Source: Nitrospirota bacterium
GTDB taxonomy: Bacteria > JACPQY01
Length of the DNA: 40,419 bases
Direction of reading: 5' to 3'
Assembly: GCA_016190245.1 (NCBI GenBank)
Contig: JACPQY010000023.1
Location: 1 to 40,419 of the forward strand
The notes under the pieces are model-generated. The model saw only the letters and a list, made by a program, of their open reading frames with translations. It searched no databases and was not told where the DNA came from. Positions 1 through 11,178 of this stretch are shown here, in pieces (within the stretch, counting starts at the first letter, position 1; each line of letters starts with the position of its first letter). Both the position numbers and the translations under genes were made by a program.

Positions 1-18
1 TGGACCCGCCCGAGGGGA

Positions 19-40
19 GGGAGGGTGCAAGCACCCTCCC
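19..40. repeat. Perfect hairpin near left edge
   Basis: The arms gggagggtgc (19-28) and gcaccctccc (31-40) are perfectly complementary around a 2-nt centre. No U-tract follows, so it is not a typical intrinsic terminator. Similar GGGAGGGTGC-type palindromes are often dispersed intergenic repeats, but only one copy is visible here. It may lie in the 3' flank of a gene left of the window. Confidence 0.5.
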
Positions 41-81
41 CTACAAGGATTGCGGTGGCCGGCGAAGGGTTTTCAAACAGA

Positions 82-229
82 GCCTAGTACCATGTTGACT
101 ACTTCTTGGAACAGATCGGTGCCTCCAACATGGTACTTTCGGAACGATGTTTGCTTCCGCAAACATCGTTCCGATGGTCCCGCGTCGGTGACGATCTGCT
201 CCAAGAATTCCTCAACGCGGGACTAGGCC
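82..229. repeat. Nested inverted repeat of two hairpin-bearing half-elements
   Basis: The centre is a perfect 16-bp stem: tcggaacgatgtttgc (139-154) pairs with its complement at 159-174 around a 4-nt loop. The outer ends (82-98 and the reverse complement of 213-229) match at 14 of 17 positions. An intermediate block, ttcttggaacagatcg (103-118), matches the complement of 192-207 at 15 of 16. Each half also has its own internal stem: agtaccatgttg (86-97) with caacatggtact (126-137) on the left, and a tcccgcgt/acgcggga type stem on the right. The two internal stems differ in sequence but both remain paired. This resembles a REPIN or MITE-like doublet. It ends directly before the porin start codon. 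Confidence 0.7.
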
Positions 230-231
230 GG

Positions 232-1740
232 ATGGCCTCCGGCTCCGTCCGTCCGCCGCGCCGCCTGGTCCGCTCTCGCACCTTGGCGCTCGCGGTCCTG
301 CTCATGCTTGTCCTCACCCCGGTCATCTCCCACGCCGCGGACGTCGAAATGGGCGGTTACGCCAAGGCCCTCACCTCGCGGGACCTTCGGGACGATCATC
401 CCCTCGAAGACATCTCGCAGAGCGCGACGAAGCTTTTCCTCCGGGCCCGCGCGCGGACCTCGGAGGCCGTGGGGATCGAGTTCTCTGCCAAGGCGCGATA
501 CGACGTGTTCGTCGCCCAGACGATCGAGCCTCTCGTCGAGGGTCACGCCGAGGCGGACCTTCACGAACTCTACGCAGACACGAGTTGGGGCAAGCTCGAT
601 GCCAGGCTCGGGTTCCAGATCGCTTCCTGGGGGGAGAACCTCTTTCTCAGCCCCTTGGACGCCATCAACCCCCCCGACCTGCGCTACATGCTCGATCCCG
701 ACGCGGACGATGCCCGCCTGCCCGTCGCTGCTGCCCGCCTCACCTACTACCCGGCCGATTCGCTCACCCTGGAAGCCATTTGGATCCCCTTCTTTCGCGA
801 GGCCGGGTTCCAACTCTTCGCGCGCGACACCGCTCTGCTCAAACATGAGAGCATCCGCGTCCACATCAACCCCTCGGCTCAGACCGACCCCAGCAAGGCC
901 CTCATCCTCGGTGATGACCCGGCCGATCCCTTGCACGATCCCGAACTCGAAGATCGCGCCAATCGGCTCTTCAAGGCAACCGATTTCCCGGACGAGGACC
1001 TGGGCGATTCGGACGGCGGCGGCCGGCTCGTCTACGCACGGGATCCCTTCACCCTTGGGCTCTCCTACCTCTATGCGCATGACCACTTCCCGGCCCTCAG
1101 AGCCAGCCCCGAGATCGTCAGGGCGGTCAAGGACGGCGTCATCACCCTCGACGAGCTGTTCAAACTGCAGCAGGTTGGAGCTGAATTGGACATCACCTAC
1201 GCACGGCGGCACCAACCCGGCCTCTCGCTCAACGCCACTGTCCTGGACACAAACTTCGGCTTGGAAGCCGTCTACACCTCGAAGCGCGCCATCTACGATC
1301 GCCAGATGACCCGCTACGACCGCCCCTACACCACCGTGGCCGCCGGAGGAGACCGCCTGCTTCTCGATGGCCACCTCATGGTTGGAGCCGAAGCGCTGGC
1401 CATGTGGTTTCACGATCTCCCGAAGGACGCCGATCTGCTCCTCGTTCGCAACCCGATGCTTGCCGTGATCGGCATGGCGCGGCTCATGCTCCTGGATGAC
1501 ACGCTCACCGCCGAGTTGCGAGGCATGGCTCTTCCGAATTTCGGCGAGGGTCTCATCAACCCGCGCATCGAATACGCGCTCAACGATCACTGGCACCTCT
1601 TCACGGGCGCCTCCTGGTACCAGGGCGAATCCAAGCCGCTGTTCGTCCAGAATCCCGACGACCCCTTTCCCAATCTCACGCCAATCGGGTATCTTCAGGA
1701 GAACTCGGAGGCGTTTGCCGGCGTCAAGTACCACTTTTGA
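232..1740 (+). CDS. DUF1302-like outer-membrane beta-barrel (porin-like) protein
   Basis: This 502-residue protein is predicted to sit in the outer membrane. The ATG at 232 places a basic stretch and hydrophobic segment (LALAVLLMLVLTPVISHA, about residues 16-33) at the N-terminus as a signal peptide. Upstream in-frame codons lie in the inverted repeat and were rejected as starts. A segment near residue 125, LGFQIASWGENLF followed by DAINPPDLR, matches the DUF1302 / alginate-export-like pattern (GRQ..xWGE...INxxD). The rest alternates short beta strands and ends in a Phe, as BAM substrates do. The family is known only loosely; substrates are unclear. The gene lies 84 nt upstream of the transglutaminase/ABC genes on the same strand and may be their outer-membrane partner, which is inference. 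Confidence 0.75.
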   Translation: MASGSVRPPRRLVRSRTLALAVLLMLVLTPVISHAADVEMGGYAKALTSRDLRDDHPLEDISQSATKLFLRARARTSEAVGIEFSAKARYDVFVAQTIEPLVEGHAEADLHELYADTSWGKLDARLGFQIASWGENLFLSPLDAINPPDLRYMLDPDADDARLPVAAARLTYYPADSLTLEAIWIPFFREAGFQLFARDTALLKHESIRVHINPSAQTDPSKALILGDDPADPLHDPELEDRANRLFKATDFPDEDLGDSDGGGRLVYARDPFTLGLSYLYAHDHFPALRASPEIVRAVKDGVITLDELFKLQQVGAELDITYARRHQPGLSLNATVLDTNFGLEAVYTSKRAIYDRQMTRYDRPYTTVAAGGDRLLLDGHLMVGAEALAMWFHDLPKDADLLLVRNPMLAVIGMARLMLLDDTLTAELRGMALPNFGEGLINPRIEYALNDHWHLFTGASWYQGESKPLFVQNPDDPFPNLTPIGYLQENSEAFAGVKYHF

Positions 1741-7960: not shown

Positions 7961-10162
7961 ATGGACAGGACTGGTCTATTCACTCAAGCCCAAAAGTACG
8001 CGCAGAAGGGGCAACTCGACAAGGCCGTCAGGCAGTACGAGAAGCTGCTCGAGGCCGATCCCGATGACGTCAAGATCCACATCCAGATCGGGGAACTGAA
8101 CAACAAGCTCGGTCGCCGCGACGAGGCCCTCCAAGCCTACTTCAGAGCGGGCTCCCTCTTTCTCCAGACCGGCTTTACGCAGAAGGCAATCGCCGTCTAC
8201 AAGCAGGCCCTCAATATCGACCCCGGCTCTTCGGAGATTCACCTCAAGCTGGCCGATTTGTACCTCAAGTCCAACCTCGTTCCGGAGGCCATCAAGCATT
8301 TCGAACTGGTCGCTCAAAACTGCGAGGAAGACGGCAACGTTGACGACGCTCTGGACATCTATACTCAGCTCTACACCCTCGATCCCGACCGAAAGCACTT
8401 CCTCCTCAAGCAAGCAGAGATGCTTTTCCGGAAGGGGGACCGCTCGAAGGCCGTTCAACTCCTTCAGCCCCTCGAAGCCACGTACAAGGCCAAAGGCAAC
8501 ACCGACTACCTGATTTCCCTCTACGAGATCATCCTCAAGTACGACCCCGTCAACGAGCAGGCTTTGACCGACTACACAGCGATCCTGATCGCCAAGGAGC
8601 AGCACGCGCGCGCGGTGGAGGTCCTCGAGGCGCCCATCAGCAACGGAGCCATCCGCGCACCCGCGCTGCACCTTCGGCTTGCCGACGCGCTCGAGAGGGC
8701 GGGCCGGCCGCAGGATGCCCTCCGGCAATATCTCACCATCTTCGAGGGGTCAGCGGGCGCGGAGGAGGACCTTCCGCTCTATCAGAAACTCCTCGAGGCC
8801 ATCGTGCGCCTCGATCCCGCGCAGACCAAGGCAAGCCAAGCCCTCGAGCAGTTGCGCGGACCCGGCGAGGCGGCGAGCGAGGAACGCCTTCCCATACCCG
8901 ACGAAACGCTTCTGGGCCGCACGGGCCGCGCCGGAGCGGGCCTCTGGCGTAGCGTGGAACGCCCCGACGCCGAGAAATGGGCCGCCCAGGTGGACATGCT
9001 GCTCAAGCACCAGCTCCAGGATCTGGCCTACCAGCACCTCATGAAGGCCATCGAGACACACCCCGATTCGGAGCTGCTGACGCGCCGGCTTGCCGAAATC
9101 GACCTCTCTTCCGCGGCACCGCTCGAGGAGATCGAGGTCCTTGAAGAGGCCGAAGAAGATCGGACGCCCATGCCGCTCGGCCCGCCCTCCGGCGGGCTCC
9201 GTCCGCCCACCGGCGGATTCAATCGACCCGCCGGCGGATTGGAAAGCGCGCCGCCGGTCCAAACCGCTGCCGAAGCCCCTCCCTCCGAGCCGGCCGAGGA
9301 GCCGATCCTCCTCGATGAACCGGCGGACCTGGAGGAACCGATCATTCTCGAGGAAGCCATCGAGCCGGGCGGCCACCCGCCGAGCCAGGGAATGGCGCAA
9401 CCGGAGGCCGCTGCGCAGGACCGGGGCACCACGCAGCAGGTTGCTGCGCCCCCCGGGAGCCCCGCACCCGAAACGTACGGCGAGTTCAAGATCTACATGC
9501 CTGAGGAGGAGGCATCCCCGTCCCAAGAGGAACCACTTCCCGAGTCGCCGCCGGACGAGCCTTCACTTCCGGAGCCGCCCGCCGCGACGCCGGACGATCT
9601 CTATCACCAGGGCGTGGCCCTCTGTCTCATGGGCCGTCATGGGGAAGCGCTCGATTTCCTGAACGCCTCGCCGCCCGACGGCACGAGGCTCCTCCCCGTC
9701 CGCCTAAGCTGCCTGCACGCACTGGGCCGGCACGACGAGGCGGCCACGCTCCTGGCCGAAACGGCCGCCGCGGGTGTAGGCGACGAGGACACGCAACTGC
9801 ACCTCCTCTACGAGTTGGCCGAGGCCCTGGAGCGCTGCGGACAGGCCGACAAGGCCCGCCGATGGTTCGCGCGCCTGGCTGATCTCCGACCCGACTACCG
9901 CGACGCCGCGAGCCGCGCCGTAACGGGCACCGTCGAACCGGAGGATCTCCCCCCCCCCGAGATCGCCGAGCCGGCGCCTCTGGAACCTCCTTCACTCGTG
10001 GGTGTCGAGCCGCCCCCGCCGGAGATCCCAACCCTACGGCCCGATCTTGCGCCACAGGCCGTGGAGGCTGTGCCCGAATCGGTGCCCGAGCCGATGCCGG
10101 AACCGACGCCCGGCCCCCCGGCCGCGCCACCGAAGGCGCGTTCGAACATTTCGTTCATCTGA
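7961..10162 (+). CDS. TPR-repeat protein with Pro/Glu-rich linker
   Basis: This 733-residue protein appears soluble, with no signal peptide. The N-terminal ~290 residues are tandem TPRs (units such as AVRQYEKLLEADPDD, AIAVYKQALNIDPGS and ALDIYTQLYTLDPD). A short helical stretch follows, then a disordered acidic and Pro-rich region from about residue 385, containing three near-identical 7-residue units PPSGGLR/PPTGGFN/RPAGGLE (DNA 9182-9244). Two more TPRs occur around residues 545-645 (DDLYHQGVALCLMGRHGEAL), and the tail is Pro-rich. TPRs are protein-interaction scaffolds. The next gene, 14 nt downstream, is an ExeA-like ATPase, so a role in assembling a secretion or pilus-type machine is plausible but inferred. 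A C10 tract (9949-9958) lies in the coding strand. Confidence 0.85.
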   Translation: MDRTGLFTQAQKYAQKGQLDKAVRQYEKLLEADPDDVKIHIQIGELNNKLGRRDEALQAYFRAGSLFLQTGFTQKAIAVYKQALNIDPGSSEIHLKLADLYLKSNLVPEAIKHFELVAQNCEEDGNVDDALDIYTQLYTLDPDRKHFLLKQAEMLFRKGDRSKAVQLLQPLEATYKAKGNTDYLISLYEIILKYDPVNEQALTDYTAILIAKEQHARAVEVLEAPISNGAIRAPALHLRLADALERAGRPQDALRQYLTIFEGSAGAEEDLPLYQKLLEAIVRLDPAQTKASQALEQLRGPGEAASEERLPIPDETLLGRTGRAGAGLWRSVERPDAEKWAAQVDMLLKHQLQDLAYQHLMKAIETHPDSELLTRRLAEIDLSSAAPLEEIEVLEEAEEDRTPMPLGPPSGGLRPPTGGFNRPAGGLESAPPVQTAAEAPPSEPAEEPILLDEPADLEEPIILEEAIEPGGHPPSQGMAQPEAAAQDRGTTQQVAAPPGSPAPETYGEFKIYMPEEEASPSQEEPLPESPPDEPSLPEPPAATPDDLYHQGVALCLMGRHGEALDFLNASPPDGTRLLPVRLSCLHALGRHDEAATLLAETAAAGVGDEDTQLHLLYELAEALERCGQADKARRWFARLADLRPDYRDAASRAVTGTVEPEDLPPPEIAEPAPLEPPSLVGVEPPPPEIPTLRPDLAPQAVEAVPESVPEPMPEPTPGPPAAPPKARSNISFI
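9182..9244 (+). repeat. Three tandem 21-nt in-frame repeats
   Basis: Three consecutive 21-nt units (9182-9202, 9203-9223, 9224-9244) encode PPSGGLR, PPTGGFN and RPAGGLE. Each carries a ccggcgg core. They lie in the disordered linker of the TPR protein and could vary in copy number without shifting frame. Confidence 0.7.
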
Positions 10163-10176
10163 CCGTCCCCCCCCGA

Positions 10177-11178
10177 ATGGCCTACCTCAATTTCTACCGC
10201 CTGAAGGAGGAACCCTTCTCCAACGCCCCCCTCGCCCATTTCTTCTTCACCAGCGAGGAGCACCAGCGCGCCCTCGCGCGCCTGGGGCACGCGGCGCGCT
10301 CGATGAAGGGACTCGCGCTCGTGGTCGGCGACATCGGCTCGGGCAAAACCACGCTGGCCCGAAGGATGCTCGAAGAGCTGCCGGAAGACGAATTCATCGC
10401 CAGCCTCCTCGTCATCGTCCACTCCAACGTCAGCCAGGAATGGCTCCTTCGAAAAGTGGCCATCCAACTCGGCGTGGATCGTCCCCAGGAGGAAAAAGTC
10501 GCGCTGATGTCCCAGCTCTTCGAGCGTCTCGTGCGCATCCAGCAGGAAGGCAAGAAAGCCGTGGTCATCATCGACGAGGCCCAGATGCTGCGCGACCCCG
10601 AAATCTTCGAGGAGATCCGCGGCATGCTCAACCTCGAAACGGGCGCCGGCAAGCTCATCACCTTCATCATGTTCGGGCTGCCGGAGATCGAGGGCTGCAT
10701 GGCGCAGGACGCGGCCCTGGCGCAACGCGTCGCCATTCGTGTTTCGCTCCGACCGCTGGATCGTGCCACCATGGAAGAGTACGTCGGCCACCGCATGCAG
10801 GTGGGGGGCTCGTCGCAGAGTCCGTTCACCGCCGACGCGATCGACATGATCTACCACCACTCCGGCGGCATCCCCCGTCTCGTGAATACGCTGTGCGACA
10901 ACGCGTTGCTCGAGGGTTTCCTTCGCAGCCGTGAACAGATCGACATGGAGCTCGTCCAGGAAGTCGCCCGCAATCTCCGCCTGACGGACAACACCGGCGA
11001 TCACACCCTCCGGCCGCCGGCCGACGCGGCGGCCGTCGCCATTCCCGGTCCGAAAGCGGAAACCACTGAAGAAGCGCTGCCCTACCGTCTGGACTTCTCC
11101 GTCATGGCTGAGGAACAGCACGGCGGCGAACGCGCGGACCTGGATGACCTCATCGACCGACTCGAGCGGAAGCGGTAG
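10177..11178 (+). CDS. ExeA-like AAA ATPase (general secretion pathway family)
   Basis: This 333-residue ATPase carries the ExeA/GspA hallmark start (YLNFYRLKEEPFSNAP). Walker A is GDIGSGKTTLAR (about residue 50), Walker B is VVIIDEAQML (about residue 130) and GGIPRLVNTLCDNAL is the typical C-terminal lid motif. ExeA works with ExeB in assembling the type II secretion secretin; relatives also serve pili and unrelated systems such as transposition. This protein ends soon after the ATPase domain and has no visible TM segment or peptidoglycan-binding domain, unlike full-length ExeA. No Shine-Dalgarno sequence is present, because a C8 tract (10167-10174) fills that position. Coupling to the TPR gene 14 nt upstream seems likely. 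Confidence 0.88.
   Translation: MAYLNFYRLKEEPFSNAPLAHFFFTSEEHQRALARLGHAARSMKGLALVVGDIGSGKTTLARRMLEELPEDEFIASLLVIVHSNVSQEWLLRKVAIQLGVDRPQEEKVALMSQLFERLVRIQQEGKKAVVIIDEAQMLRDPEIFEEIRGMLNLETGAGKLITFIMFGLPEIEGCMAQDAALAQRVAIRVSLRPLDRATMEEYVGHRMQVGGSSQSPFTADAIDMIYHHSGGIPRLVNTLCDNALLEGFLRSREQIDMELVQEVARNLRLTDNTGDHTLRPPADAAAVAIPGPKAETTEEALPYRLDFSVMAEEQHGGERADLDDLIDRLERKR

Follow-up and report, generated by a model that had tools for sequence, protein, structure and literature searches.

A family of miniature elements in Nitrospirota with selected end hairpins and a probably REPIN-like mode of movement

The beginning of the window, the whole 40,419-nucleotide stretch analysed here, carries one copy of a real mobile-element family whose end hairpins are under selection and which is new relative to the collections searched. 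Mobility of the family is close to certain, as far as sequence can show. For the route we infer single-strand transposition by a Y1 enzyme with a cut at CT, and the element is probably a non-autonomous, REPIN-like miniature element that relies for its movement on a RAYT/TnpA-REP-type Y1 HUH transposase acting in trans and cutting after CT. Copies were mapped in G000, the source genome (3.29 Mb, about 85% complete), and in the sole other genome of the phylum in the collection (G001), which belongs to the same taxonomic family and a different genus.

The window copy has the layout described in the initial annotation, with two half-elements in 82–229 facing each other around a perfect 16-bp stem with a 4-nt loop (139–154 / 159–174) and an internal stem of different bases in each half. 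The coordinates given there were right within 2–4 bases. The window from 84 to 226 reads CTAGT...ACTAG and is one type A copy, 143 bp from CTAG to CTAG. In all comparisons every copy is turned with half G first, which for the window copy means the minus strand. The features are as follows, a slash marking the element boundary.

1–84, minus strand: partial 'C' element, truncated by the contig start and adjoining half M; ends GGCTCTGTTTGAAAAC at CTA/TAG.
84–85, plus strand: CT flank of half M, giving CTAG together with 86–87 and read on the minus strand as the 3' flank AG.
86–224, minus strand: type A element body, 139 bp, reading CT/AGTCCCGCG ... CATGGTACT/AG; six copies in the genome, junctions compared over 27 copies.
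86–137, plus strand: half M hairpin with a 12-bp perfect stem (86–97 / 126–137); the equivalent type B stem covaries (helix 3).
139–174, no strand assigned: central palindrome, 16-bp perfect stem and 4-nt loop TTCC or GGAA, its orientation varying among copies.
177–224, minus strand: half G hairpin with a GC-rich stem (177–184 / 216–223); the equivalent type B stem covaries (helix 1).
225–226, plus strand: AG flank of half G, read on the minus strand as the invariant 5' flank CT.
232–1740, plus strand: DUF1302 outer-membrane (porin-like) gene, outside the element (Pfam PF06980, E 1.9e-19).

Both halves carry a box in their long loop, TTCTTGGAACAGATCGG at 103–119 in half M and TTCTTGGAGCAGATCG at 192–207 in half G. 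The region folds far more strongly than dinucleotide-preserving shuffles, with z of -9.9 as RNA and -10.2 as DNA. In two of the six type A copies (C16 and C67, compared with C9, C51, C63 and C82) the central 4-nt loop is reversed with respect to the ends, as hairpin processing or recombination at the palindrome would give. The copy does abut a porin start, as had been noted: the DUF1302 gene most likely begins at ATG 232, five bases past the element. Its G001 orthologue (52% identity) has no element upstream.

The C element at the contig start is a separate repeat of about 155 bp with ends GGCTCTGTTTGAAAAC, present in 8 full and many partial copies (for example L067, 13–171, on G000 C86). Its flanks are CTA/TAG, with TTA at one end in two copies; a TA-duplicating MITE of the IS630/IS5 type would be expected to look like this. 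At three places it adjoins half M of an A or B element, with CTAG in common. Further along the window, a gene at 10177–11178 resembles an XrtA/PEP-CTERM-associated ATPase (TIGR03015, under the curated cut-off) and adjoins a large TPR protein at 7961–10162; this is possibly a PEP-CTERM/exosortase locus.

The 143-bp stretch from CTAG to CTAG occurs six times in G000 with 94–100% identity, and similarity stops at CTAG on both sides. A pattern describing the ends gave 26 matches and 0 for the reversed control pattern; the matched ends fall to types A and B and to one decayed A-like copy. The near-identical copies and this difference in pattern matches place the window element beyond chance. The family in G000 consists of 6 copies of type A (139-bp body), 8 of type B (about 160 bp) and one decayed A-like copy (C41). 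Type B has ends of the same kind as type A and an unrelated centre, TACGCCCCGCC...GCGGGGCTAC, so that a different hairpin stands in place of the central palindrome. This B centre (for example in L057 and L092) is a GC-rich hairpin with GTAG ahead of it in most copies and looks like a REP nested within the element. There are 13 B-type copies in G001, one of them degenerate (C5), and no A copies. The further copies that the initial annotation had called for are thus 14 and a remnant in G000 and 13 in G001. A covariance model of one half recovers the known set and the degenerate C5 copy. Neither the end pattern nor the covariance model finds a longer element with the same ends in G000 or G001, and a search of 60 relatives yielded nothing outside this family. 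Exact-pattern scans of 84,980 bacterial and archaeal genomes and of viral contigs were empty, and a similarity search of plasmids gave no match; records of the source genome may be absent from these collections.

The alignment of 19 B copies, with halves G and M aligned separately, shows which fold is conserved. With the stems paired within each half and the centre paired on itself, 99.2% of cells are paired and 19 cells are changed on both sides of a pair. None of 500 shuffles is as high on percentage paired, on double-changed cells or on covariation score, and the values lie far above those of all slid versions; these shuffle counts are not p-values, since shuffling ignores the relatedness of the copies. 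In half G, column pair 6/47 goes from C-G to G-C in seven copies (one being G-U) and pair 4/49 from A-U to G-C in three, while in half M pair 105/158 goes from A-U to G-C in six. The double changes fall at several different pair positions and are present in both genera, and the stems contain 17 G-U cells against 0 A-C cells. Pairing the stems of both halves end to end in a cruciform gives 82.9% paired cells and no double changes, and all 500 shuffles are as high on the covariation measures. With no covarying pairs, the cruciform was rejected as the selected form, although energy folding favours it for the A copy. The compensatory changes within halves and their absence from the cruciform indicate that each half's hairpin was maintained while the halves diverged. 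Judged from the aligned copies, the folded unit is each half, as the initial annotation had it, and not the whole-element cruciform. The earlier view that selection acts on the folded form, as in REPINs or transposase-recognised ends, and that this is no passive repeat, is supported both by the copies and by the covariation within halves.

The two halves have a box in common in their loops, and the loops covary as a set (0 of 500 shuffles). Loop–loop ('kissing') pairing of the ends was considered and dropped. G-U and A-C cells are about equally frequent in the loops (19 and 17) and loops taken from other elements fit almost as well, so the likeness appears to reflect shared sequence and not base pairing.

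With half G first, the general layout is flank-CT/AGT... and ...GGTACT/NN-flank. On the 5' side, 23 of 27 copies have the dinucleotide CT, and the other four, more diverged copies of G001, have CG. On the 3' side every A copy has AG, and B copies have AG, GG, TG, AA, AT, GC or GA. TA stands on both sides in all A copies and in 10 of the 17 CT-type B copies, and loss of TA is one-sided only: among CT-group copies TA is intact in 23/23 at the 5' side and in 16/23 at the 3' side (Fisher p 0.009). A two-sided duplication of the conventional kind should decay equally on both sides. The junction pattern is not a search artefact, because the census by B-centre pattern (8 matches in G000, 12 in G001) was made without the outer ends.

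Insertion lies mostly in intergenic DNA, and several copies are positioned on the stop codon of the preceding gene. Particular sites lie at gene ends that we take, from their translations, to be succinate-dehydrogenase-like, moaD, plsX and fabH. Between the succinate-dehydrogenase-like genes, the orthologous G001 interval contains one CTAG, at the stop codon (TTC TAG G), and G000 reads ATC TAG-element-CTAG G. At moaD the element comes after the Gly-Gly-stop end of the reading frame. The plsX–fabH junction is tight in G001, while G000 has the element plus other inserted sequence. As sequences, the empty sites would fit a cut at CT/AG without duplication and a TA duplication of CTAG alike.

The main rival, possible though unlikely, is a MITE mobilised by an IS630- or IS5-like DDE transposase, with insertion in CTAG and duplication of TA; the element would run GT...AC between two TAs. 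All A copies and 4 of 8 B copies in G000 read C-TA-(GT..AC)-TA-G, the C element in the same genome has exactly such a TA/CTAG flank, and the single CTAG at the empty site suits TA duplication equally well. ERIC- and Correia-type elements are described as lying between two duplicated TAs, and ours resembles them as an imperfect palindrome of about 100–160 bp in intergenic DNA with a TA/CTAG context. It differs in that pairing is conserved within halves and not end to end, and in that the 3' side of several B copies has no duplicate. Terminal repeats that are read as double strands need no compensatory upkeep of a stem within each half. Other observations against a DDE enzyme are that TA loss is one-sided (0 versus 7 of 23), that the third base is always C at the 5' junction but free at the 3' junction in G001, that B copies are strand-biased, and that no autonomous partner with the same terminal repeats was found in G000 or G001.

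The strand bias was read from the sign of GC skew, which does not change across the windows sampled on the long contigs C2, C3 and C7 of G001, except for a near-zero window ending C3. B copies are oriented 16:3 relative to the skew sign of their contig (p 0.004), not counting two copies whose contigs have no clear skew; G001 alone gives 11:1. The A and A-like copies show no bias (3:4). The bias of B copies fits insertion into single strands exposed at replication, with gene direction a possible confounder. Their CT-side strand is the C-rich strand, and if the G-rich strand is the leading one, this polarity is opposite to the simplest IS608-like expectation.

In the preferred reading, a single-strand Y1 route, each end would form a single-strand hairpin with a stem of 8–12 bp and a long loop, the two halves being opposed across a centre that can be replaced. 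The folded ends would be recognised by an enzyme acting in trans, most likely a RAYT/TnpA-REP-type Y1 HUH transposase, which would cleave after a CT dinucleotide. The element would then be rejoined after a CT, mostly in intergenic DNA and often at a stop-codon CTAG, without duplication of the target. Several observations count against this route. No Y1 gene of the two genomes carries these ends, the ends have no GTAG foot, and the polarity of the B copies is that just described. The A copies, moreover, are all bounded by CTAG at either end and lack a strand bias, as would also result from a TA-duplicating element.

The RAYT/IS200-like transposases proposed as a check do exist, with eight Y1 genes in G000 (L018–L025) and seven in G001 (L122–L128), all of the RAYT/TIRYT type. 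Their expected link to the element was not found: within about 1.5 kb, these ends stand beside none of the 15 genes across both genomes. Fourteen of the 15 have their own flanking terminal repeats or REPs. The terminal inverted repeats (GGGGTCA.., GGGACGTTG.., GAAAAGGGGACATTCC.., GGTGACAGTATAC..) are unlike the ends studied here, two short genes on G001 C5 are flanked by GTAG-bearing REP-like repeats, and L123 has no convincing repeat on both sides. Since the source genome is about 85% complete, the Y1 partner may be missing from it. A search for Y2 (IS91) transposases gave no match, and its controls likewise had none.

The element resembles REPINs in several respects. It is short, non-coding, mostly intergenic and multi-copy, it consists of two inverted hairpin halves, and paired inverted hairpin repeats occur as one dispersed unit in 27 mapped copies. 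The genome has RAYT-type genes, and the CT junction is as in TnpA-REP cutting (PMC3116915, PMC8266576). The TnpA-REP enzymes studied bind folded single-stranded REPs and cut at CT, and the importance of GTAG varies among them (PMC8266576). The differences are equally clear. The element ends in CT/AGTACC without a GTAG or GTGG foot, GTAG lying solely in the B centre of most but not all copies; its stems of 8–12 bp and loops of about 25–40 nt contrast with compact REPs; it has few copies (about 14 per genome) and asymmetric halves; and no RAYT gene is flanked by its ends. By analogy, then, the element would work like a REPIN, and its membership of the class fails on the GTAG foot and the flanked RAYT gene. 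We keep the wording of function despite these two features because TnpA-REP enzymes cut at CT and because TIRYT genes of other bacteria are flanked by repeats unrelated to GTAG. Such terminal repeat families are also dispersed in other species, and some are self-complementary (PMC3733652, PMC6006769).

TIRYT-associated repeats (TIRtrons; RAYT subclass 2.1) are also close in kind, as both genomes have Y1 genes of the same type whose terminal repeats resemble GGGGTCA; the repeats that flank them here are unrelated in sequence to the element ends. With non-autonomous derivatives of IS200/IS605 the element shares subterminal single-strand hairpins and, as far as the B copies go, would also share a constant target on one side only, no duplication and a strand bias. 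The one-sided target is seen in B copies, in which CT is constant and the 3' side varies, while the A copies fit both readings. It differs from those derivatives in that its ends are mutual inverted repeats, its target is two bases (CT), no autonomous element was found in the two genomes and its strand polarity is not of the simple IS608 type.

The four diverged B copies with CG flanks (L119, L120, L121 and L154, on G001 C12, C18, C30 and C5) suggest a further feature. None of the four has CT at the 3' end of the element, compared with 21 of 23 CT copies (hypergeometric about 0.0009, hand-calculated), and two of them terminate in CG. With so few copies this association is only a lead, and a coordinated switch of target and end dinucleotide is possible in these copies. 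The fuller proposal is doubtful: a lineage-restricted class of single-strand elements whose recognition signal is the long-loop end hairpins and not a GTAG foot, and whose target switched from CT to CG together with its own 3' dinucleotide.

A non-mobile family of regulatory RNAs or transcription terminators, kept for its RNA fold, is highly improbable. The strong RNA fold of the window region, the many copies immediately 3' of a stop codon and the position of the window copy closely upstream of a start codon would agree with such a role. The exact ends, unrelated flanks, near-identical A copies and orthologous sites without the element argue against it, as do the presence of copies in both strand orientations relative to neighbouring genes and the lack of any Rfam match in the window. 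Least probable of all is that these are recombination sites belonging to a different system, single-strand or core-dinucleotide: integron attC and IS110-like systems have folded sites, or CT shared at both ends, while the copies here are single and dispersed with no arrays, their flanks show no evident conserved target beyond CT, and attC was set aside for its reversed GTT/AAC order.

The 27 mapped copies in two genera form a compact natural dataset in which compensatory changes identify the repeat fold that matters. It is each end's own hairpin, against the larger cruciform that energy folding prefers. If the single-strand route is right, the family would carry REPIN-like elements into a phylum that has been little sampled, in a form lacking the GTAG foot by which REPs are defined, and would offer a testable case of two-base target choice by Y1-type enzymes. 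The CT to CG switch, if true, would be a naturally occurring case in which a Y1 system was retargeted. That CTAG at stop codons is used repeatedly also shows how such elements can settle at gene ends without lengthening the protein.
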